From Thermodesulfobacteriales bacterium (GTDB lineage: Bacteria; Desulfobacterota; Thermodesulfobacteria; Thermodesulfobacteriales; Thermodesulfatatoraceae): a stretch of 45,297 nt of DNA. The stretch covers positions 1 to 45,297 of the forward strand of contig JALSPG010000056.1 of the NCBI GenBank assembly GCA_026986115.1. Direction: 5' to 3'. A program made the translations under genes and the position numbers. This document shows, piece after piece, positions 4,519 through 27,481 of this stretch (within the stretch, counting starts at the first letter, position 1; every line of letters begins with the position of its first letter). The notes under the pieces were generated by a model. That model searched no databases and had not been told where the DNA came from. It worked only from the letters and a program-made list of their open reading frames with translations.

Positions 4519-7500
4519 TTAACGCTTTGCCTGTATTAAGGTATCGAGCATTTCGTCGGCTACCGTTAAAATCTTGGCCGAGGCGGCAAAGGCCTGCTGG
4601 TACTTGATAAGATTGGCCATTTCTTCATCGAGAGAAACTCCTGAAATACTATCACGCATAATTTGGAGCTGATTGATGAGATCTTCTACGAAGTTTTTGG
4701 AATTTTTGACGGTTTTGGTGGTGATTCCTACCTCACCCACTAAGGAGATATAGAAGTCTGCCACTGAGGCCTGGCCAAGTCTTTCGCGGCGATCATCTGA
4801 AAGAGCTGCAAGTCTTAAGGCGTTGCGGTTGTCTCCAGGCTGAGGGGCTAGGCCTTGGAGTTTATCTATAAGTCCGTTGTCTTTGGGGGCAAAAGTTTTT
4901 CTTGCGAGATAAGTAATAAGATTTCCCTCTTCAACGGTAAGGCTGGTGCTTAGTTTGAAAGAAACCCAGTCTTGTCTCCCGTCATTATCTAGATCTGGAT
5001 CCTTTATCTCTATAGTTAGGCGACCGGAATCATCAATGGTGGCGGAAAAATCAAAAATACCATCACTATCAGTATCAAGGACATTTAAAGCATCTAGGAA
5101 ATTTTCCAAGGTCTGACCTGTTGAAAGAGAGATAGTTTCCACACGCAGGGTAGTGCCATCTGGTTTTAAATATTCGATGTTTATATCTTGAGCCCCAAAA
5201 GAGGCATTTCTTTCAACAGGTTCATCTGTTTTTAGATACCACAGGTTGTTTTTAGCGTCGAATTTATTGGGTTTTACGCCCGATGTTTCGAAGGCCTTTC
5301 GGTGAAAGGCATCACGCACCACAAAGCTCCGCGTGTCATAAAGCCCTGAGGTTTTGACGACAAGCCTTCCCTGGTCGTCAAGATGCGCCGAAAGACCGAA
5401 ACGAGCGTTTTCTTCAGCGTTATACCTCTTTACGATCTGAATGGCCCCAGCTCCGGTCTCAAGCTTAACGCGAAAGGGATCCACGACTTCATTTACGGGG
5501 TCGGTATCGATGGGGTTTCCAGCGCCATCGAAAAGCCAATTCTCTAAGGCCCCTATCTGGAAGGAAAGGTCAAAGTATTCGTCATCGGAAGGATTCGTAG
5601 TCCCTTGGTCATTTACAAATCGAAGCGAACCCCAGGGGCGCGAAGGGCTATTCCCCTCGATGACAAAGTAGGCGGCGTTAGCAGGAGCGCTATCTCCCAG
5701 TGAGATGAAAAGCTTTCCATTATCAAGATAGGCTTTAAGTTCAGGCCGGCTATTAAGGGCAGAGACCAGGTCTTCTAAATCTATTTTTCCGTTTCCATTG
5801 GCATCGCTAATAGAAACATCCGGACTTCCGGTAGTGCCAAAACTGATTTCCTGAATCTCATTTCCTGCTTGGTCAAAGAATTTGATATTTGTAAAGCCCG
5901 AAAATAAAAGATTTTGAGGAGTTAAAGAACTAAGATCAGCCAAATACAAAGTGGGTTTTATTAGGGGTTCAAGCCCGGAAAAGATCTGTTTTTCCGGAAT
6001 CGAAGAAAGTTCCAGAGATCCCCCTGAAGAAAGATCAAGCACACCATTGCCATTACCACCGGAAACAGTCATTTTGAAAGAGACAGAGCCTTCAGGAGCA
6101 CCGGCAAGGGTGATATAAAGCTTTCCCTTATCACCTTCCGTAAAACCTGCGCGAAATTCCGGCAGGGCATCAATAAGGCTGGCAAGGTCTTTTAATGTCG
6201 TTCCGTTTGCCACGGAAAGCGAGGTGCGCTCGGTCTCTCGCCCTTCGGCGTCGTAAAAGACGAAGTTGAGCTCGGCATCTTCGTTTACTGTAACTGAAGA
6301 GGGATCTTCGTACCAGTCGGTACTTTCCATACGCCCCCGTGAGGCCACGTATTGCGGCACCCACACGCCCTGTTCGCGTAAATAATGTAGAAAGGAATCT
6401 GCCGGTGGGGGTTCGTCTATCCCGAGCTCAAAATAGGCGTAATTTTTGGAGGAATTAGGGTCAAGCTCAAGTGTTAGGCGGCCATTTCCGTCAATGTAGG
6501 CCCGGAAGCCTTCGATGGCGTCCAGTTTGTTCAAGATGTCTTCTAAGGTGTCGCCCGGGTTGAGCTCCACGGCGAGCTCTTTCACCTTAAAGCCATTTTC
6601 AGTTTCATGGAGGATCTGATTGCCGGTGGCGTCAAAAAAGCGGACATAGATTTTATGAGCCGGGTCGTTGAAAATTTTCTGTTCCGGATTTGCTATGGGG
6701 AGGTGGCTTTTATAGCTTCCGGCGAAAGGTACTTCGCTTCGCCAGGCTTCGCGATCAAGCCTTGCGGCGGCAAGGTATTCCGGATTCACCGAAAGATTTT
6801 CGTTAATGGCGATACTTCCGGCATCAGTGCCTGCAAAAAAGACATTTATCCCGGTCGCCAAAAGCACATTGGCGGTATCGTTTGAGAAGGCAAAGCCCCA
6901 TCCCTCCTGGGCCTTAAAGACCAGACGTCCGTTGCGGAAAAGGGCCTTAACTGAAGTTTCCGGGTCAAAGCCCGCTTCCTTCAGGGCTTCATTTATCTGA
7001 TTGGTGAGGTCATCAAGGGTAGCGGTAGCCGGAAGTGCAAAGTCAATTTTGACGGGGGTAATATTCCCCACAGAATCTTTTATCCAGATAAAAAGGGAGC
7101 CATCACGTTTGATATCGCGAAAAAGATCAAGACTTTTAATGCTTCCGTCACTCTGAAAGAGACCCTCAAGCTCTCCTTCGAAAAATTTAAGTCCCACGCC
7201 TTCGGTGTGGATTTCATTTACCCCGCGGATAAGCTCTTCGGCAAAGAGCTGAAACTTCCCTGTGAGATTTAATTCTTTAACACGGTGGTTGGCGGCTTCG
7301 TCATCAAAACGGCCGAAATCAAGCGGGCCTTCAATAATAGCAAAGCTTAGCTTTCCCCCACCTCGTACTGCGTCTTTTACTACCAGGCGACCATCATCGG
7401 TGAGATAGGCCTGCACTTTATAATCGTAGGCCTTTTCTATTTCGTTTAAAAAATCCCGGATGGTTTTTTGGGGGTCGGTGGTTTGGTAAGTACCTTGGAT

Positions 7501-8508
7501 TTCTTCCCCATAATGATTAGTGCCTTGAAAACTTATCTTTATTGTTCCTGAAAGCCCCAGTTCTTCCCAAGTAGTATTTTCCCGCAAGAGATTTCCCTTT
7601 CTTGTAAAGACCGGGCGACTCGAAATAACATATTCATAATTCCAGTCTGAAGAGATTTGTTCTATGATGCGTAGCCAGCCACCGAGTTTTCCCTGTGAGA
7701 CTTCTTTGCTAGTTAAGCGGACTTTCTCGCCGCTGTGCCCCCGCCAATAGACCTCGCCTCCTGAGAGCTCGAGCTCCCAGTAAGAGTCAATATCTACCAG
7801 GTTGTAGCCGTTACCAAGCACCACGGCATAGGCCCCTTGGTTGTTTTCAAAGTAGCGCACCTGGGCTAGCTCCGATAGCCTGGCCACGAGCTTGTCTCGT
7901 TGGTCGCGAAGATCATTGGCTTGGTGGAGCCCAGATTCCGCCGCGGTGATCTGGCGGTTGATCTCGGCAATCTGTTTGGCGAGTTCGTTTATTTCGCCTA
8001 TAACGTCGCGTAATTTAAGACGAATATTGTTTTCCAGATCTACAAGCCCTTGATTTTTGTCTCGAATGGCTTCTGCCAAAACACGGCCTTTCTCTATTAC
8101 TACCCGCCGTTCAGGGATTCCCTCTGCACGATTGGCAAGCCCTTGCCAGGCAGTGAAAAAATCTTCGAGTAATCTTGAAAGGCCAAACTCGTTGGCCTCG
8201 TTGAAAAGGCCCTGAATGAGGTCAAGCCCGGTTTCTTCTGCAGCAAGAAGCCCCAAATCGCTGCGCTTAAGGTTAATATTGGCTTCAAGAAAGGCATCAA
8301 AGTAGCGTTTGATTTGTTCCACCTTTACTCCACTACCCATAGGGCCTGCAGGCCCTGGGGTGGGAGGGTAGGGGGCATTAACCGTTTTCTGGCGGGAATA
8401 TCCCTCGGTATCCACGTTGGCCACGTTGTGGCCTGTGACGTGGACCCCTGTTTGAAAAGCCAGAAGCGAGTTTTTGGCGATATTTAAGGCACTATAAAGC
8501 CCTGCCAT
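4519..8508 (-). CDS. flgK: FlgK, hook-associated protein 1, strongly enlarged
   Basis: The N-terminus (LYSALNIAKNSLLAFQTG, then GHNVANVDTEGYSRQ) and C-terminus (DEEMANLIKYQQAFAASAK, then ILTVADEMLDTLI) are canonical FlgK D0/D1. At 1329 residues it is two to three times the usual 450-650. The inserted middle contains about six Flagellin_IN-like units near residues 348-379, 497-533, 654-693, 770-802, 910-948 and 1131-1169; each is a TLxxL helix, then a strand ending in GRL or GKL. Acidic loops resembling calcium sites occur at residues 902-913 (DANGNGKIDLED), 1145-1153 and 1171-1180, with a weaker one at 817-826. The protein joins hook to filament outside the cell. It follows flgN by 2 bp. No stop or frameshift breaks it, so the size is genuine. 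Confidence 0.96.
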   Translation of the reverse strand: MAGLYSALNIAKNSLLAFQTGVHVTGHNVANVDTEGYSRQKTVNAPYPPTPGPAGPMGSGVKVEQIKRYFDAFLEANINLKRSDLGLLAAEETGLDLIQGLFNEANEFGLSRLLEDFFTAWQGLANRAEGIPERRVVIEKGRVLAEAIRDKNQGLVDLENNIRLKLRDVIGEINELAKQIAEINRQITAAESGLHQANDLRDQRDKLVARLSELAQVRYFENNQGAYAVVLGNGYNLVDIDSYWELELSGGEVYWRGHSGEKVRLTSKEVSQGKLGGWLRIIEQISSDWNYEYVISSRPVFTRKGNLLRENTTWEELGLSGTIKISFQGTNHYGEEIQGTYQTTDPQKTIRDFLNEIEKAYDYKVQAYLTDDGRLVVKDAVRGGGKLSFAIIEGPLDFGRFDDEAANHRVKELNLTGKFQLFAEELIRGVNEIHTEGVGLKFFEGELEGLFQSDGSIKSLDLFRDIKRDGSLFIWIKDSVGNITPVKIDFALPATATLDDLTNQINEALKEAGFDPETSVKALFRNGRLVFKAQEGWGFAFSNDTANVLLATGINVFFAGTDAGSIAINENLSVNPEYLAAARLDREAWRSEVPFAGSYKSHLPIANPEQKIFNDPAHKIYVRFFDATGNQILHETENGFKVKELAVELNPGDTLEDILNKLDAIEGFRAYIDGNGRLTLELDPNSSKNYAYFELGIDEPPPADSFLHYLREQGVWVPQYVASRGRMESTDWYEDPSSVTVNEDAELNFVFYDAEGRETERTSLSVANGTTLKDLASLIDALPEFRAGFTEGDKGKLYITLAGAPEGSVSFKMTVSGGNGNGVLDLSSGGSLELSSIPEKQIFSGLEPLIKPTLYLADLSSLTPQNLLFSGFTNIKFFDQAGNEIQEISFGTTGSPDVSISDANGNGKIDLEDLVSALNSRPELKAYLDNGKLFISLGDSAPANAAYFVIEGNSPSRPWGSLRFVNDQGTTNPSDDEYFDLSFQIGALENWLFDGAGNPIDTDPVNEVVDPFRVKLETGAGAIQIVKRYNAEENARFGLSAHLDDQGRLVVKTSGLYDTRSFVVRDAFHRKAFETSGVKPNKFDAKNNLWYLKTDEPVERNASFGAQDINIEYLKPDGTTLRVETISLSTGQTLENFLDALNVLDTDSDGIFDFSATIDDSGRLTIEIKDPDLDNDGRQDWVSFKLSTSLTVEEGNLITYLARKTFAPKDNGLIDKLQGLAPQPGDNRNALRLAALSDDRRERLGQASVADFYISLVGEVGITTKTVKNSKNFVEDLINQLQIMRDSISGVSLDEEMANLIKYQQAFAASAKILTVADEMLDTLIQAKR

Positions 8509-16323: not shown

Positions 16324-16687
16324 GTTGCTTCTTAGTTTTGAATATTAGCCAATTTTTCCCGTCTAGTCGGATAAGGGCGTAACGGCCTTTTAATTTTTCG
16401 CCATCGAAGATAATGACGATTTTATCGTCTTCCCAGGATTCTATTTCATAAAACCCTTTGTCCCAGAGCTTGACGACTCCGGCCCCATAATGGCCCGGAG
16501 GTATTACTCCTTCGAAATAAATGTAATCTAAAGGGTGATCCTCGGTCTCAACGGCGAGCCTTCTTACCCCTATTTCGAGGGGTGGGCCTTTGGGAATGGC
16601 CCAAGATTTTAACACCCCGTCTTTTTCAAGTCTTAAGTCCCAATGAAGATGACTAGCATGGTGTTCCTGTACAGAAAAACGCGGCAT
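16274..16687 (-). CDS. Stand-alone LigD-type DNA 3'-phosphoesterase
   Basis: A 137-residue protein matching the 3'-phosphoesterase domain of bacterial/archaeal LigD (PF13298). Visible are the metal/active-site block HHASHLHWDLRLEKDG, WAIPKGPP, HPLDYIYFEG and the IPPGHYGAGVVKLWD segment. The enzyme removes 3'-phosphates or ribonucleotides at DNA ends; here it has no ligase or polymerase domain, as in many anaerobes and archaea. The ATG at 16685-16687 overlaps the upstream AsmA stop (TGATG) after an AAGGAG site. The last ~17 residues (QPSGARNDHHGRHGRKS) are coded opposite the His-rich end of the NifX-like gene, suggesting a run-on tail. Confidence 0.9.
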   Translation of the reverse strand: MPRFSVQEHHASHLHWDLRLEKDGVLKSWAIPKGPPLEIGVRRLAVETEDHPLDYIYFEGVIPPGHYGAGVVKLWDKGFYEIESWEDDKIVIIFDGEKLKGRYALIRLDGKNWLIFKTKKQPSGARNDHHGRHGRKS

Positions 16688-19600
16688 CAAGGGCTCCTTG
16701 CCGGTTTCTCTTCTGCCTTTTTTGGTGTCAATATTTTGACAGGAAGTTTAAAGGTCCGTCCTACTATACCTAGAAATTGGGATCCAAGAGAGACAGGGTC
16801 AAGGGGGAGCACGGTGGGGTCATTTATTTTCCCGGTGATCCGGACCGGGACCGCTAGAAGCATTTTGGATTTACCGGTAAGTACCCATCCTACTAAGGGG
16901 ACCCTGCTTACTACGGCGTTGAAGGCTTTAAAGGGAGAGACTAAAAGGGTGAGATCGATTTTTTGATCTAAGAGATAGACCTTTCCCGTACCAAAAAATC
17001 TGAGCCCAGGAGCATTGAGTTGGAAAGATTCTATTTTTAAGTAATTTTTTTTAAATTTTCCCTTTAACTCTAGAAGATCGTAATCCATCCCTTTCTGGGA
17101 AAAATCTGGCAAATTGCCACTAAAGATATCGATAGGACTCAGGATGGCAAAGAGTTTGGAGAGAGCTCCAAATTTGTAAATGTGTCCTTCTTTGGATTTG
17201 AGGTAGACCTTTCCGCTGCTTTTTTCAAAGAGCTTTTTCCCATAAGTGATAAGCTCGCCTCGGAGTTCGAAGGGACCTTCGAGATCTTTTTTATGAAAAA
17301 GGCAAAAGAGGGTTTCTTCAAAACGACCTTTGGGGTTCAAGAAAGAGATTTCAAGGCGTTGAATGTCAGGTTTCTTTTCTAAAGAGCCGCGCAACTCGAT
17401 ATCGCAAAGATAAGAATCCGTAATTACCAACCTGAAACTTCCGGGAAGATAAAAAATAGCCCCCTTAAAGGGGGTTAATTTGTAGCCATGATAGATTACG
17501 CTTTCTGCTTCAAGATCAACTTTGGCTACCAACTTAAATCTGGGACCTGAGTTCTGTGAAGGGCTTTTTTTCTTTTGGGAAAAAAGATTGAGAATGTTTT
17601 CTACTATTATGTAAGGAGAGTAGGCGCTTCCTTCAAAAGATAGGTAGTTGTGGGAGAAAATAAGATCACCTTCGGTTTCAAAATAGGTCCCATCAAGGTC
17701 AAATTCTCCGTGGTTTATGTGAATTTTTCTTTCCATAGCCTGTAAGGAGAGGCTTTCGAGCCATAGAGGATGGTGTAGATAGGGAATTTTAAAGCGTGAG
17801 ACCTCAAGACTCCCAAAAAAGTAGCTCTCAGCAGGTTTTTTAAGGTCAAGCACCCCTTCTAAATCTGTTTTTAGATGCTGGAGTAAAAAGGGGTTTTGAG
17901 ACAAAAAGAGTTCTATTTCGCGGGCGCTGATTTCGCCGTGGAGAGCAAGGGCCAATTTTTGTTCTTTGGTAATACGAAAACGAAAACTTTCTTTACCCGA
18001 GGGGAAGAGGGCCCCGTCTAATTGCCAGTGCGGTCCATCTTTTTCAAAGACCAAGTTGGCCCAAGAAGGGGAGGTGGTTTCTAGTTTTCCTGCGAAGCGA
18101 AGGTGTTGGTCTTTTTTTTCGAATTCTACAGAAGAAAGTTTAAGTGGCGTTTTTGGAAAAAATTCCAGGGGTAAGTGGCCTTTTTCAAAGACCCAAGTGA
18201 GGAATTGTTTTTTGGCCTCTCCTCTTCCAGTAAGAAAAAGACGAAAAGGACGGAAAGAGATCTCTCCTGCTACATTGAAAGAGGAATCAAACCAGCGAAG
18301 GCGAGAAGGTCCAAAAGAAAGCCCCAAATCATGGTAGGTAAATTGCCCTTTCTCTAAAAAGAGCGGAGTAGGAAGTTCGGGGCAGGAAAAGCGCAAATTT
18401 CCACCAGAAAACTCTAGAGATAGTTTCTTGAGAAAAGATTTGCCTTCAAGAGGGCCGCGGTAAGAGGCATGAATAAGGGTGATTTTTTCGCCTTCCAGGC
18501 GGTAACGCTTAAGATAGGACTTGAGAGACACAAAACTTTGAAGGACTTGATTGAGCTCTTCAAGGTAAATTACCCCTCTGGCCTCAGAAAGATCTAATTG
18601 CCAAGGTTTAGAGGCTAAATCTATAAGGGCCATTCCACTCAGATAGCTCTTGGGAAAAGAAATTTTACTTCCCCTTATATTCACTTTACGAGAATTGTAG
18701 CTTATAGTTCCCCCTTCTATTTTTAGCGGAAGCGGAAAACGATGATACTCCAAGGAAACTTTTTGAGGACGGAGTACAAAACTCACTTTCGGTTTTTTAA
18801 GTTTTCCAAGGATCTTTACTTTCCCACTAAGTTTTCCCTCACCCTTAAGGCCTGAAATTTCCTGATTGATTCGGGAAGGAAGAGGAAGGGTTTTGAGGAT
18901 ATTTTTTAGCCCTTTAAAGGGGCCTTCAAATTGCGTTTCAAAGAAGAAGGGGCTGTCTTTTTTCTTTTTGAGGGAAGAAATATCAAGGAAAAGTTTGGTC
19001 TTTTTGAGAAAGACTCCCTCACAGAGGCCCCGAGCTTTCTTTACCTCAAGCTTCCCCTGCCAGACTTTTACAAGGCCTTGGGCCTCTTCGAGAGAAAGCT
19101 TTATTTTGGGAATATTCACTTTGGCTTTGAGGGCCTTCCCTTCGTAAAAAAGGTTTTGGAGCTTAAAAAGGGCCTTAAGTGAAGGGGCTTCACTTTTGAA
19201 GTGAGTGTTTTCAGCAAGGCCTGATTCTACAATTTCACTAAACCGCTTAAAGCCTCTATTGTGGCCCAAAAAGATTAAAAGCCGTTTTCTTATTTCTCCC
19301 CAATCTGCCTTGGTAATTTGAAAATCAAAAAAGGCCTTTTGGGGTTGCCAAGCAAAGGCCCCGCGGGCTTCCAGAAGAGGATTTTTCATCTTGAGTTCTT
19401 GGAGTTCGACTTTCGCTAATTTGGAGCCTAAAAGGGCCTTTCCTATTACCGCTGAACAATCAAAAAGAAGGGGAATACGGCCTCTGCGAGCTATGATACA
19501 AGGAGCGGTACCGGTGAAACCCAAATGCCATTTACCTTCTTCGAAGCGAAAAGAAAGGTCCAGAGAGAAATCTGTTTTTAGAGATTTTTTAAGATCTTCA

Positions 19601-20277
19601 GGAAGAAGAGAAAGACGGGAAAGATCGGCTTTTTTAAGTTTGAGGAGACCTTCAGCAAGCTCTTCACCGGGCCAGAGTTTGAGAGATAACTCTAAAGTTT
19701 TAAGAGCCGGATTTTGGCCTTTGATCTCAGCTTGGAGAAAGTCTTTCTTGAGGGCCAAAAAAATTTGCCCCCTTTGGAGAAGGGGTACTTTGCTAGCACC
19801 TTTTTCTTGATAAAGGGCTCCATTTTGGATTTTGATCCTTACTTCCGGAATTTTACCAAGAATCATGTTGATTTTAGAAAAAATACTTTTAGAAGGGAGA
19901 AAAAGGGTACTTTTTTGGCTTTTTTTCTTTTTTTCTTTGATAGTAACTTCAAGGCCTGTTAGAAGACATTTTTCAATTTCTATTCGTCGGTGAAAGAGAG
20001 GAAAAAGCTTCAAAATGAGATTTCCCTCTTTGAGGCTCAAGTAATAGCGGGGATTTTTCAGACGCACATCAGTGGTATTAAGGGCGGGGGTGGGAAGGAG
20101 CTTAAGAGAAACTTCTCCTATCTCGACCTCAGATTTTAACCGTTGAGAGAGCCTTTCTGCCAGGCTGTTTTTAATCGTCTCTAAATTTACTAAATAGGGA
20201 AGGGCAAAAATCAGGCTGATCAAAAGAATGAAGACCAGAAGAAAAAATAGGGCCAAGAATTTAAAAAATTTTTTCAT
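16687..20277 (-). CDS. AsmA-family envelope protein
   Basis: A 1196-residue protein with one N-terminal transmembrane helix (FLALFFLLVFILLISLIFAL, residues 8-27), then a very long beta-strand-rich periplasmic region, as in AsmA/TamB/YhdP lipid-transfer proteins. The N-terminus (AERLSQRLKSEVEIGEVSL, then LLPTPALNTTDVRL) is AsmA-like. The C-terminus (GMDYDLLELKGKFKKNYL, LNAPGLRFFGTGKVYLL) is the AsmA_2-type repeat. Relatives are thought to bridge phospholipid transport to the outer membrane. The family call is strong; substrate unknown. A proline tRNA lies 16 bp upstream on the same strand. Confidence 0.85.
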   Translation of the reverse strand: MKKFFKFLALFFLLVFILLISLIFALPYLVNLETIKNSLAERLSQRLKSEVEIGEVSLKLLPTPALNTTDVRLKNPRYYLSLKEGNLILKLFPLFHRRIEIEKCLLTGLEVTIKEKKKKSQKSTLFLPSKSIFSKINMILGKIPEVRIKIQNGALYQEKGASKVPLLQRGQIFLALKKDFLQAEIKGQNPALKTLELSLKLWPGEELAEGLLKLKKADLSRLSLLPEDLKKSLKTDFSLDLSFRFEEGKWHLGFTGTAPCIIARRGRIPLLFDCSAVIGKALLGSKLAKVELQELKMKNPLLEARGAFAWQPQKAFFDFQITKADWGEIRKRLLIFLGHNRGFKRFSEIVESGLAENTHFKSEAPSLKALFKLQNLFYEGKALKAKVNIPKIKLSLEEAQGLVKVWQGKLEVKKARGLCEGVFLKKTKLFLDISSLKKKKDSPFFFETQFEGPFKGLKNILKTLPLPSRINQEISGLKGEGKLSGKVKILGKLKKPKVSFVLRPQKVSLEYHRFPLPLKIEGGTISYNSRKVNIRGSKISFPKSYLSGMALIDLASKPWQLDLSEARGVIYLEELNQVLQSFVSLKSYLKRYRLEGEKITLIHASYRGPLEGKSFLKKLSLEFSGGNLRFSCPELPTPLFLEKGQFTYHDLGLSFGPSRLRWFDSSFNVAGEISFRPFRLFLTGRGEAKKQFLTWVFEKGHLPLEFFPKTPLKLSSVEFEKKDQHLRFAGKLETTSPSWANLVFEKDGPHWQLDGALFPSGKESFRFRITKEQKLALALHGEISAREIELFLSQNPFLLQHLKTDLEGVLDLKKPAESYFFGSLEVSRFKIPYLHHPLWLESLSLQAMERKIHINHGEFDLDGTYFETEGDLIFSHNYLSFEGSAYSPYIIVENILNLFSQKKKSPSQNSGPRFKLVAKVDLEAESVIYHGYKLTPFKGAIFYLPGSFRLVITDSYLCDIELRGSLEKKPDIQRLEISFLNPKGRFEETLFCLFHKKDLEGPFELRGELITYGKKLFEKSSGKVYLKSKEGHIYKFGALSKLFAILSPIDIFSGNLPDFSQKGMDYDLLELKGKFKKNYLKIESFQLNAPGLRFFGTGKVYLLDQKIDLTLLVSPFKAFNAVVSRVPLVGWVLTGKSKMLLAVPVRITGKINDPTVLPLDPVSLGSQFLGIVGRTFKLPVKILTPKKAEEKPARSP

Positions 20278-25510: not shown

Positions 25511-27481
25511 TTAATCAAACTTTTCGAGCTCTTTCCGGAGATCTGTAAGGTAGCTAACGACGCGCTTTACTTTGGGAGAGATTTTCTCTTTTAACACCGG
25601 ATATATTTCTTGTGTGGGGACATTGTTTTCGATAAGGTGGATTACCTCCTCGGCGCTGCGATGGAGCTCTTGGTGTTCGGGGTCTAAATGTCTGACAATT
25701 TCTGCGGTTTCCGCATTAGGGGCCTTGAAAGAGGCCAGCCATTTACCAAGGGCACATCGGGAAGGATCTGTGTGGACGTCTGGTCTTTTCTTTTCGAGAA
25801 TGCCAATTAAAAGCCTTTCCCGCCATTGAAAGTGTTGAAGGGTCATGCCAAGCACTTTGATACTTTCTTCGGCCCTTTCTCCTGCGGTTGCCAAGGCGGT
25901 TTCTTCTACTTCAAAAGAGTGATTAACGGTATTTATTTCTTCTACAATGTCAGCCACGGCTTCTTCAGCCAATTTGAGCTCGGCTGAGACCTCTTCGATG
26001 TGGCCTACCTTTTGGGCAAGTTCTTTGATCTGATCGTTTACCTGGATGACACCACTTATTCCTTCTTGGACGCTGCGGTTGATGTCTTCGGTGGTGGCGG
26101 TTTGTTCTTCGGTAGCAGAGGCAATTCCGGTGGCCAGATCTCCGATCTTGGTGATAATTTCGTCTACGGAATGTACAGCCTCCACGGCTTCATCTACGTT
26201 TTGTTGGATAGTACTTACCATGCCGGTAATTTCTTCAGTGGCTTTAGAGGTCTGTTTGGCAAGTTCCTTGACTTCATTGGCTACCACTGCAAAGCCTTTG
26301 CCAGCTTCTCCTGCACGTGCCGCCTCGATGGTGGCATTTAAGGCCAGGAGATTGGTTTGATCTGCAATTTGGTTGATCACCTGGACGATCTGGCCAATCT
26401 TTTGAGAACTTTCTTTAAGCCCGGTAATAACTCGCGTAGCAATTTCGGCCTTTTCTCTGGCTTCTTGAGAAATGTTAGCGGTTTCATTTACATTTTGGGC
26501 GATTTCCTGGGTGGCAGTGCTGAGCTCTTCAATAGCCTGGGAGACGGTCTTCAGGTTTTCTGTGACTTGTTCGGCTGCAGCTGCCACCTCACGGGCAAAG
26601 TGCCCAATATCTTCTACATTTTCATTTACCACCCCTTCAACCTGAGAGAGATTTTGAGAAGCCTTAGTGAGGGCCTCAGTCTGAACTTTTAAAGTCTTCA
26701 AGATCTGGCCTATGCCGCAAAGAAGAGAATTACAGGCCGTGGCAAGCCTTCCAAGCTCGTCTTTAGAAGTCACTTTTACGGCCTTTAAAAATTTGCCATG
26801 GCCCATTTCGACCAAACCATTCATGACTTCCCTGAGCCCACTTTCGATCTGACGGATAATCACAATTCCCATACTTCCTAAAAGGACAAAGGCTATCAGA
26901 AAGACTAAAAGCGTTTCTTTTTCCCCTCGGGCCAGTTCTTTTAGAATCTCTTTGTATGCTTTAGATGAACGCTGTTCCAAAAAGTTTGATAATTCAGCAC
27001 TATATTTTTCAAAATCTTCGAAATAAGGCCCAAGATCTTTTTGAAGGACGGCTTTAAAGGTTGCTAAATTATTTTCCCTAAGGGCTTTTAGGGCTGGTTC
27101 TATTTTAAGGGGCAATTTTTCGAAGAAGGTCTCAAGTTTTGAAAGGTCAATAAATCTGTTTTCGGCCCGGGCTTTTTTCAAAAAGGCATTCCATTCATTT
27201 TCGGTTTCCACAAGGAGACTCTCTATTTCTTGTGCTCCCTCTGAAGGAGGAAGAACGCCGAGGAGAATATTTGAAAAGGCGTCTTTTATCTGTCCCAAAT
27301 TGTCTTCTATTTTGTCAAACTGGTCTGCAATTTCGAAAGTATCTTCGTAGTCTGTTAATGAAAGGCTTATATTTTTGGTTGAGAAATAATTGATCCCAAA
27401 GACAAGCAGGAGAGAAAAGATACCTAATCCCTTTATTACAAAAAGTTTGCTTTTTACAGAGAGCCTTTGCCAAAAATTCAT
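25511..27481 (-). CDS. Methyl-accepting chemotaxis protein with C-terminal CZB zinc domain
   Basis: A 656-residue chemoreceptor. Transmembrane helices at about residues 14-33 and 190-211 flank a helical periplasmic sensor (34-189, acidic four-helix type). A HAMP follows (about 212-265), then the signalling coiled coil (about 290-500), whose tip reads [20 protein letters not shown], ending in [16 protein letters not shown]. The C-terminal 100 residues form a CZB domain: His550, then [10 protein letters not shown] (Cys576) and PEHQELH (His603, His607), likely Zn ligands. CZB domains sense hypochlorite or zinc in known receptors; ligand here unknown. A sigma-28-like promoter precedes it. Confidence 0.94.

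Follow-up and report, generated by a model that had tools for sequence, protein, structure and literature searches.

Candidate calcium-binding loops in the Flagellin_IN-type units of an enlarged FlgK from Thermodesulfobacteriales

The window analysed here, a 45,297-nucleotide stretch of DNA from a Thermodesulfobacteriales bacterium (contig JALSPG010000056.1 of assembly GCA_026986115.1), encodes FlgK, the protein of the flagellar hook-filament junction, with three loops of the form Dx[DN]x[DN]Gxx[DN] in its middle part. The loops lie within repeated units of the Flagellin_IN type (IN units) and are probably structural calcium sites that would firm the outer domains of FlgK after its export in an unfolded state. 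Judged from sequence, it is highly likely that they bind Ca2+, and a structural role, once binding is granted, is likelier still. What seems to be novel is how these traits come together: loops of the calcium type set into IN units, confined to the junction protein and kept across five genera. In the literature searched, whose coverage leaves out most subscription journals, we found no title or abstract reporting calcium binding by FlgK.

The three loops occupy residues 902-913, 1145-1153 and 1172-1180 (protein coordinates are counted from the ATG). The pattern D.[DNS].[DNS]G..[DNE] occurs three times in FlgK versus 0.076 expected from 20,000 shuffles of the same protein (P about 1e-4), and D.[DN].[DN]G three times versus 0.158 expected by shuffling (P about 5.5e-4). 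A preliminary description of this DNA had pointed to several acidic D-x-(D/N)-x-(D/N)-G loops; they are indeed there, in excess over the shuffles, and the example it gave, 902-913, is the first of the three. The loops, with a possible fourth, are as follows.

5770..5805, minus strand: loop 1, residues 902-913, DANGNGKIDLED, dockerin/EF-hand-type, immediately ahead of the helix of unit 5 (motif scan; EF-hand_1 E 6.3e-4, below the cut-off)
5050..5076, minus strand: loop 2, residues 1145-1153, DTDSDGIFD, helix-to-strand link (motif scan, conservation, model)
4969..4995, minus strand: loop 3, residues 1172-1180, DLDNDGRQD, after the invariant D1170, strand-to-strand link (motif scan, conservation, model)
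5479..5508, minus strand: possible fourth acidic loop, non-canonical, residues 1001-1010, D-x-D-xx-N-xxx-D (conservation)

The loops recur in relatives. A FlgK match was found in 35 of the 41 genomes of the order; with a 171-residue fragment (G009) left out, the remaining 34 genomes gave 35 sequences (G008 in two pieces), 28 of them complete. We compared the loops in 14 FlgKs covering the region, that of the window and 13 others, from the genera labelled g1, g2, g4, g7 and g8. Three of the seven incomplete sequences (G008, G006 and G002) are among these 14; G033, G008N and G017 lie outside the region, and G020 covers it in part and holds no loop. All 14 FlgKs have two or three loops. In loops 2 and 3 the ligand columns show a mean identity of 0.957 over the 14 sequences, versus 0.64 for the 314 other columns of residues 860-1209. 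Each ligand column stands at 1.0 except D1174 (0.71, the rest being Asn), G1150 and G1177 (both 0.93), and the x columns of the loops range from 0.21 to 0.64. None of 20,000 random 10-column draws reached the mean of the ligand columns, which is a guide and not a probability because the sequences are related. Ligand Asp residues were also more conserved than the other Asp of the region (0.96 versus 0.69, 8 versus 21 residues, Mann-Whitney P 0.004), the 21 including D1170 and the Asp conserved at the possible fourth loop. Loop 1 is present in 11 of the 14, with positions 1, 3, 6, 9 and 12 invariant and position 5 kept in 10 of the 11. At the possible fourth loop, in unit 6, D1001, D1003 and D1010 are found in all 14 sequences and N1006 in 13; G015, a member of the derived clade described below, has a canonical DxDGDGxxD at this place, ahead of the same PFR. 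Residues 1001-1010 may be a non-canonical metal site.

Among the axial proteins examined the loops are found in FlgK only, since flagellins, hook-type frames, FlgL and FliD have none. The flagellins of 12 relatives (frames of 516-1014 amino acids, aa) contained no loop, where about two would be expected in total. Of the other 43 open reading frames (ORFs) scanned in the window, FlgL and FliD included, none has even the six-residue core, and the two hook-type frames of the same genome have no nine-residue loop, one of them showing one six-residue match (DHNSSG) close to its beginning. Five of the flagellin frames (L184 and L186-L189, from G010, G029, G005, G004 and G003) are large, at 785-1014 aa, and free of calcium-type loops. 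In the window's own genome (G000) the Flagellin_N model finds FlgL only; a separate flagellin occurs in 12 of the 13 relatives searched, and G022 likewise gives an FlgL-sized match only. The missing flagellin of G000 is likely an assembly gap.

The loops are carried by an insert of about 930 residues between the conserved ends of FlgK, made up of about seven IN-type units, four clear and three weak. With units 3, 4, 5 and 7 as its source, a profile (cut-off: independent E-value, i-E, < 0.01) recovered seven units in FlgK; its matches to those four units come by construction, because the profile was made partly from FlgK itself, and the independent ones, units 1, 2 and 6, were found at 1e-5, 1e-3 and 3e-4. 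The preliminary description had counted about six. The units are listed below.

7327..7545, minus strand: IN-like unit 1, weak, residues 322-394 (profile match 321-390; hhalign, unit profile i-E 1e-5)
6850..7101, minus strand: IN-like unit 2, weak, residues 470-553 (profile match 471-545; hhalign, unit profile 1e-3, Flagellin_IN alone E 0.0024)
6415..6657, minus strand: IN unit 3, residues 618-698 (Pfam, hhalign, unit profile)
6055..6276, minus strand: IN unit 4, residues 745-818 (profile match 745-816; hhalign, unit profile)
5650..5892, minus strand: IN unit 5, residues 873-953, holding loop 1 (hhalign, unit profile; model topology b-b-a-b-b-b)
5302..5580, minus strand: IN-like unit 6, weak, residues 977-1069 (profile match 993-1065; hhalign 93% to unit 3, unit profile 3e-4)
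4942..5190, minus strand: IN unit 7, residues 1107-1189, holding loops 2 and 3 (hhalign, unit profile; model pLDDT 64.1)

Comparison of the units with one another by hhalign gave 96% for units 3 and 4, 99% for 3 and 5, 96% for 3 and 7, 98% for 4 and 5 and 97% for 4 and 7; the pair 5 and 7 reached only 43.5%, so that not every pair of units is recognisable. The weaker units scored 93% (6 with 3), 79% (1 with 3) and 70% (2 with 1). These values support a strong relation among units 3, 4, 5 and 7 except between 5 and 7, a good one for unit 6 and a weak one for units 1 and 2. Over the whole FlgK the Pfam family Flagellin_IN (PF07196) scored 39.9 bits in two stretches, above its gathering score of 22.7; run on each unit alone, it matched three of the seven, all below the cut-off. 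The Pfam model is much less sensitive than the unit profile, and the kinship of the remaining units rests on hhalign and that profile. The repeats of this family in FliD and flagellins are the same kind of unit as units 3-5 and 7 of FlgK, and the FliD of the window has two of them (Pfam, unit profile). The Pfam model reports no calcium loop, whereas in the FlgK of the window loops replace turns. IN-unit number changes between close relatives: the FlgKs L004 and L005 (from G005 and G029), of 1457 and 1461 aa, carry one more IN-like unit, placed ahead of the last.

AlphaFold (AF2) models were made from two-row alignments of the window FlgK with one related locus, L078. The predicted local distance difference test score (pLDDT) was 50.7 for units 5-7 together, with much of loops 2 and 3 under 50, and 64.1 for unit 7 alone. 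Units 5 and 7 share the same predicted order of elements, strand-strand-helix-strand-strand-strand, and at this low pLDDT the loops are placed in connections and not within strands. Alignment and models put loop 1 at the strand-to-helix link of unit 5; in unit 7, loop 2 joins the helix to a strand and loop 3 joins two strands. The structural neighbours of the unit 7 model at ranks 1-12 are all flagellar axial proteins, led by residues 355-464 of Campylobacter jejuni FlgK (Z 6.6, root mean square deviation 3.3 A over 88 residues), in a tie with Vibrio flagellins; with a pLDDT of 64 and a warning from the tool that Z under 8 is common, the match is support and not proof, because model confidence is low. 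Foldseek returned nothing at E <= 0.001 for either model (best E 0.013 for units 5-7 and 0.17 for unit 7).

The loops show the features of the Dx[DN]xDG class: the ligand pattern, a place between regular elements and conservation in relatives. EF-hands and dockerins have helices on both sides and paired loops; in the model, loop 1 has a helix after it only. Loop 1 continues from 902-910 to D913, as in dockerins; the family lists contained no dockerin family. A profile of unit 5 finds troponin C (best E 0.012) and one of unit 7 finds calmodulin (best E 1.6e-5) in the PDB, aligned over the loops, which points to a likeness of loops and not to kinship. By score the FlgK loops are neither EF-hands nor dockerins, and they would probably bind calcium like one. 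Dx[DN]xDG loops, known from EF-hands, dockerins, thrombospondin type 3 repeats and integrin/FG-GAP blades, share with those of FlgK the ligand spacing 1-3-5-6-9(-12) and an extracellular setting (PMC3123361). They bind Ca2+ in a near-identical manner in strand-loop-helix, helix-loop-strand and strand-loop-strand contexts, with a preference for extracellular proteins; a loop between two strands can form a site, and folding of a thermophilic archaeal subtilisin needs an insertion carrying such a calcium loop (PMC3123361). The setting differs here, being a flagellar IN unit; the string 'flagell' does not occur in the main text of that paper. The archaellin of Methanocaldococcus likewise has calcium in an outer domain, the head domain, of a thermophile's swimming filament; in contrast to FlgK, it is an unrelated protein and fold, and a filament subunit rather than a junction protein, with D154, D156, S158, N166 and D169 as ligands (PMC8821640). 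From the published behaviour of Dx[DN]xDG loops and the archaellin parallel, we infer that extracellular Ca2+ would occupy the loops of FlgK and make the last units of the insert firmer.

FlgK forms a ring around the axis at the hook-filament junction. Its outward-facing part is enlarged here to about seven chained, beta-rich IN-type units, and ordinary turns of units 5 and 7 are swapped for Dx[DN]x[DN]Gxx[DN] loops. The axial proteins of flagella leave the cell in an unfolded state, and free Ca2+ is scarce in the cytoplasm. In the mechanism we propose, FlgK would cross the flagellar export channel unfolded, cytoplasm and channel both being calcium-poor, and each loop would most likely bind one Ca2+ on reaching the exterior. 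There, calcium would fill the loops, aid the folding of each unit, and stiffen and heat-stabilise the outer domains. Calcium binding by these loops, if real, would place a bacterial flagellar axial protein beside the secreted calcium-stapled proteins and the archaellins, and calcium would act at the torque-bearing junction of hook and filament, here in a thermophile. The loops would also offer a ready way to ask whether an axial protein exported by the type III route reads the extracellular calcium step as a folding signal.

Among the FlgKs examined the loops are restricted to part of the order, and the length of FlgK is not. Each of the 28 FlgKs that are complete in the order falls within 966-1461 aa. 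Across the phylum FlgK was found in 190 of 296 genomes, and at least two FlgKs from outside the order are longer than 1350 aa. On these grounds we rejected the view that so long a FlgK is unusual; that the insert by itself is out of the ordinary is likewise not supported. The FlgKs of near relatives are long and alignable, rather than short beside long unaligned inserts, the pattern that the preliminary description had named as telling against its proposal. For the comparison with the phylum, 40 stretches were chosen non-randomly among the matches listed, 25 long ones first and then 15 shorter, and frames were picked by FlgK profile, giving 39 FlgKs of 465-1370 aa. In these the strict motif occurs once, versus 2.04 expected, though several have four to six IN-like units. 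The fortieth stretch, L133, a second one from G222 (C34) found through a weak match to unit 7, is not a FlgK; a span of about 70 residues in it holds three D-x-N-x-[DN]-G loops.

In a tree of the conserved FlgK ends (31 rows), G010 (g4) branches off first, then g1, then g7 and g8 beside a 17-row clade of g5, g6 and g9. Support is 100/100 for the 17-row clade and 97/99 for g7 and g8 with it. Within this derived clade 13 of the 17 complete FlgKs have no loop; G022 and G036 have one at the place of loop 2, and G039 and G015 one in unit 6. The simplest history suggested by these sequences would place the loops at the base of the order, followed by decay in the clade of g5, g6 and g9. The genome of the window belongs to Thermodesulfatator, like G007, whose FlgK is identical at every residue to that of T. 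autotrophicus (NZ_LSFI01000003.1); g4, g7, g6 and g5 are presumably Thermosulfuriphilus, Thermosulfurimonas, Caldimicrobium and Thermodesulfobacterium. Marine vents are the source of named members of Thermodesulfatator, Thermosulfurimonas and Thermosulfuriphilus, and hot springs that of Caldimicrobium (PMC7463578, PMC8780430, PMC4911364). A bolder and unlikely scenario is a calcium-dependent junction in which extracellular Ca2+ would switch on the folding of the FlgK outer domains after export and harden the joint but not hook or filament, a device ancestral in Thermodesulfobacteriales and decayed in a clade that presumably left the sea for terrestrial hot springs.

Several observations weigh against structural calcium sites. 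FlgK as such can do without the sites, as the loop-less FlgKs of the derived clade and single losses indicate: in three of the 14 (G007, G001 and G021) loop 1 is deleted or degenerate and the unit continues as a plain IN unit, making loop 1 an ornament of a turn, and Gly is lost from loop 2 in G005 and from loop 3 in G010. Curated families stay below their cut-offs (EF-hand_6 18.0 versus 25 bits, EF-hand_1 19.6 versus 25.4, FG-GAP as well), and the AF2 models, at pLDDT 50.7 and 64.1, are too weak for the ligand geometry at the loops. The insert is acidic overall (15.8% D+E versus 9.3% K+R), so part of its Asp content may be charge adaptation. Taken further, this last point becomes the view that no metal is involved and that the Asp/Asn/Gly-rich turns reflect an acidic, salt-adapted surface, as the net acidic insert in all 10 relatives computed and the sub-threshold EF-hand matches would allow. 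We regard it as improbable: composition-preserving shuffles yield 0.08 motifs, conservation is phased to positions 1, 3, 5, 6 and 9 with the x positions free, and equally long IN-bearing FlgKs, such as that of G100 (1361 aa, six units), have no loops. The shuffles and the phased conservation also led us to reject an origin of the loops by chance or by composition alone.

A more serious competitor, to which we give somewhat less than even chances, is that calcium acts as a local staple of the fold of single units with no effect on the junction, the enlarged outer part being a neutral or surface-interacting ornament like the hypervariable outer domains of flagellins. It fits with loop 1 being a clean indel, present in G003 and not in its sister row in the tree, G007, with the unit otherwise unchanged; IN-unit number differs within the order, and FlgK outer domains diverge across species (PMC5691160). 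It accounts less well for loops 2 and 3, which are present in 14 of 14 loop-bearing relatives from five genera despite the divergence of the remaining region. Calcium might also link neighbouring FlgK subunits, or tie FlgK to a surface or to a partner in the filament, in adhesive or inter-subunit cross-links rather than stabilising one chain. Such bridges would suit loops that occupy the final stretch of the insert, one unit having two of them and the preceding unit a possible fourth, and calcium-containing bacterial and archaeal filaments exist, the archaellum with its head-domain site among them (PMC8821640). The chances of this are slim, for by pattern each loop holds a complete canonical ligand set (PMC3123361), which points to intra-chain sites.

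The identity of the gene is directly supported: the ORF at 4519-8508 is a true FlgK. The TIGR02492 model flgK_ends, covering both conserved ends, scores 325.7 bits against a cut-off of 170.75, the Pfam end domains FlgK_D1 and Flg_bbr_C score 143.9 and 52 bits, and solved FlgKs are the best PDB sequence matches of the 1329-aa protein. On the same strand it is flanked downstream by FliD, FliW and FlgL, and upstream by FlgN, FlgI, FlgH, FlgA and FlgG. The FlgK of 1329 residues named in the preliminary description is thus confirmed by an open minus-strand frame, by both ends and by its flagellar surroundings.

4519..8508, minus strand: flgK, one open frame of 1329 codons, 1329 aa (open frame, Pfam, TIGR02492)
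7657..8508, minus strand: N-terminal D0/D1 part, conserved, residues 1-284 (FlgK_D1 98-284, flgK_ends 6-286)
4522..4863, minus strand: C-terminal D1/D0 part, conserved, residues 1216-1329 (Flg_bbr_C 1288-1326; match to solved FlgKs from about 1220)

That so long a FlgK might be an artefact of annotation or assembly, a fused or chimeric ORF, is hardly conceivable and was rejected: nothing was found in its favour, the same architecture stands in unbroken frames in the genomes of 28 relatives, closed ones among them, and several relatives are 55-83% identical across the full length of FlgK.

FlgKs of known structure weigh 59-67 kDa and bear one outer domain or two (PMC5691160). FlgK of C. jejuni (HAP1; 5xbj / 9gsx) has the same conserved ends, and its D2 (355-464) is, in a tie with Vibrio flagellins, the top structural neighbour of the low-confidence unit 7 model; it differs in its 608 aa (PDB record) and a single D2 of 160 residues (PMC5691160), and the word calcium is absent from the main text of that paper. 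The FlgKs of Burkholderia pseudomallei (4ut1, also matched here) and Caulobacter crescentus are, like that of the window, longer, with a third domain, D3 (PMC5691160). They have 673 and 702 aa (the latter from PMC5691160) and two outer domains, compared with about seven here.

Two further genes of the window deserve mention. Positions 16687-20277 encode a 1196-aa protein whose N-terminal matches to the TamB, YhdP and GspN models lie far below cut-offs, an AsmA-like envelope protein. At 25511-27481 lies a methyl-accepting chemotaxis protein whose C-terminal residues 548-647 match the N-terminal portion of PRK09894, a diguanylate cyclase model, presumably a zinc-binding CZB domain.

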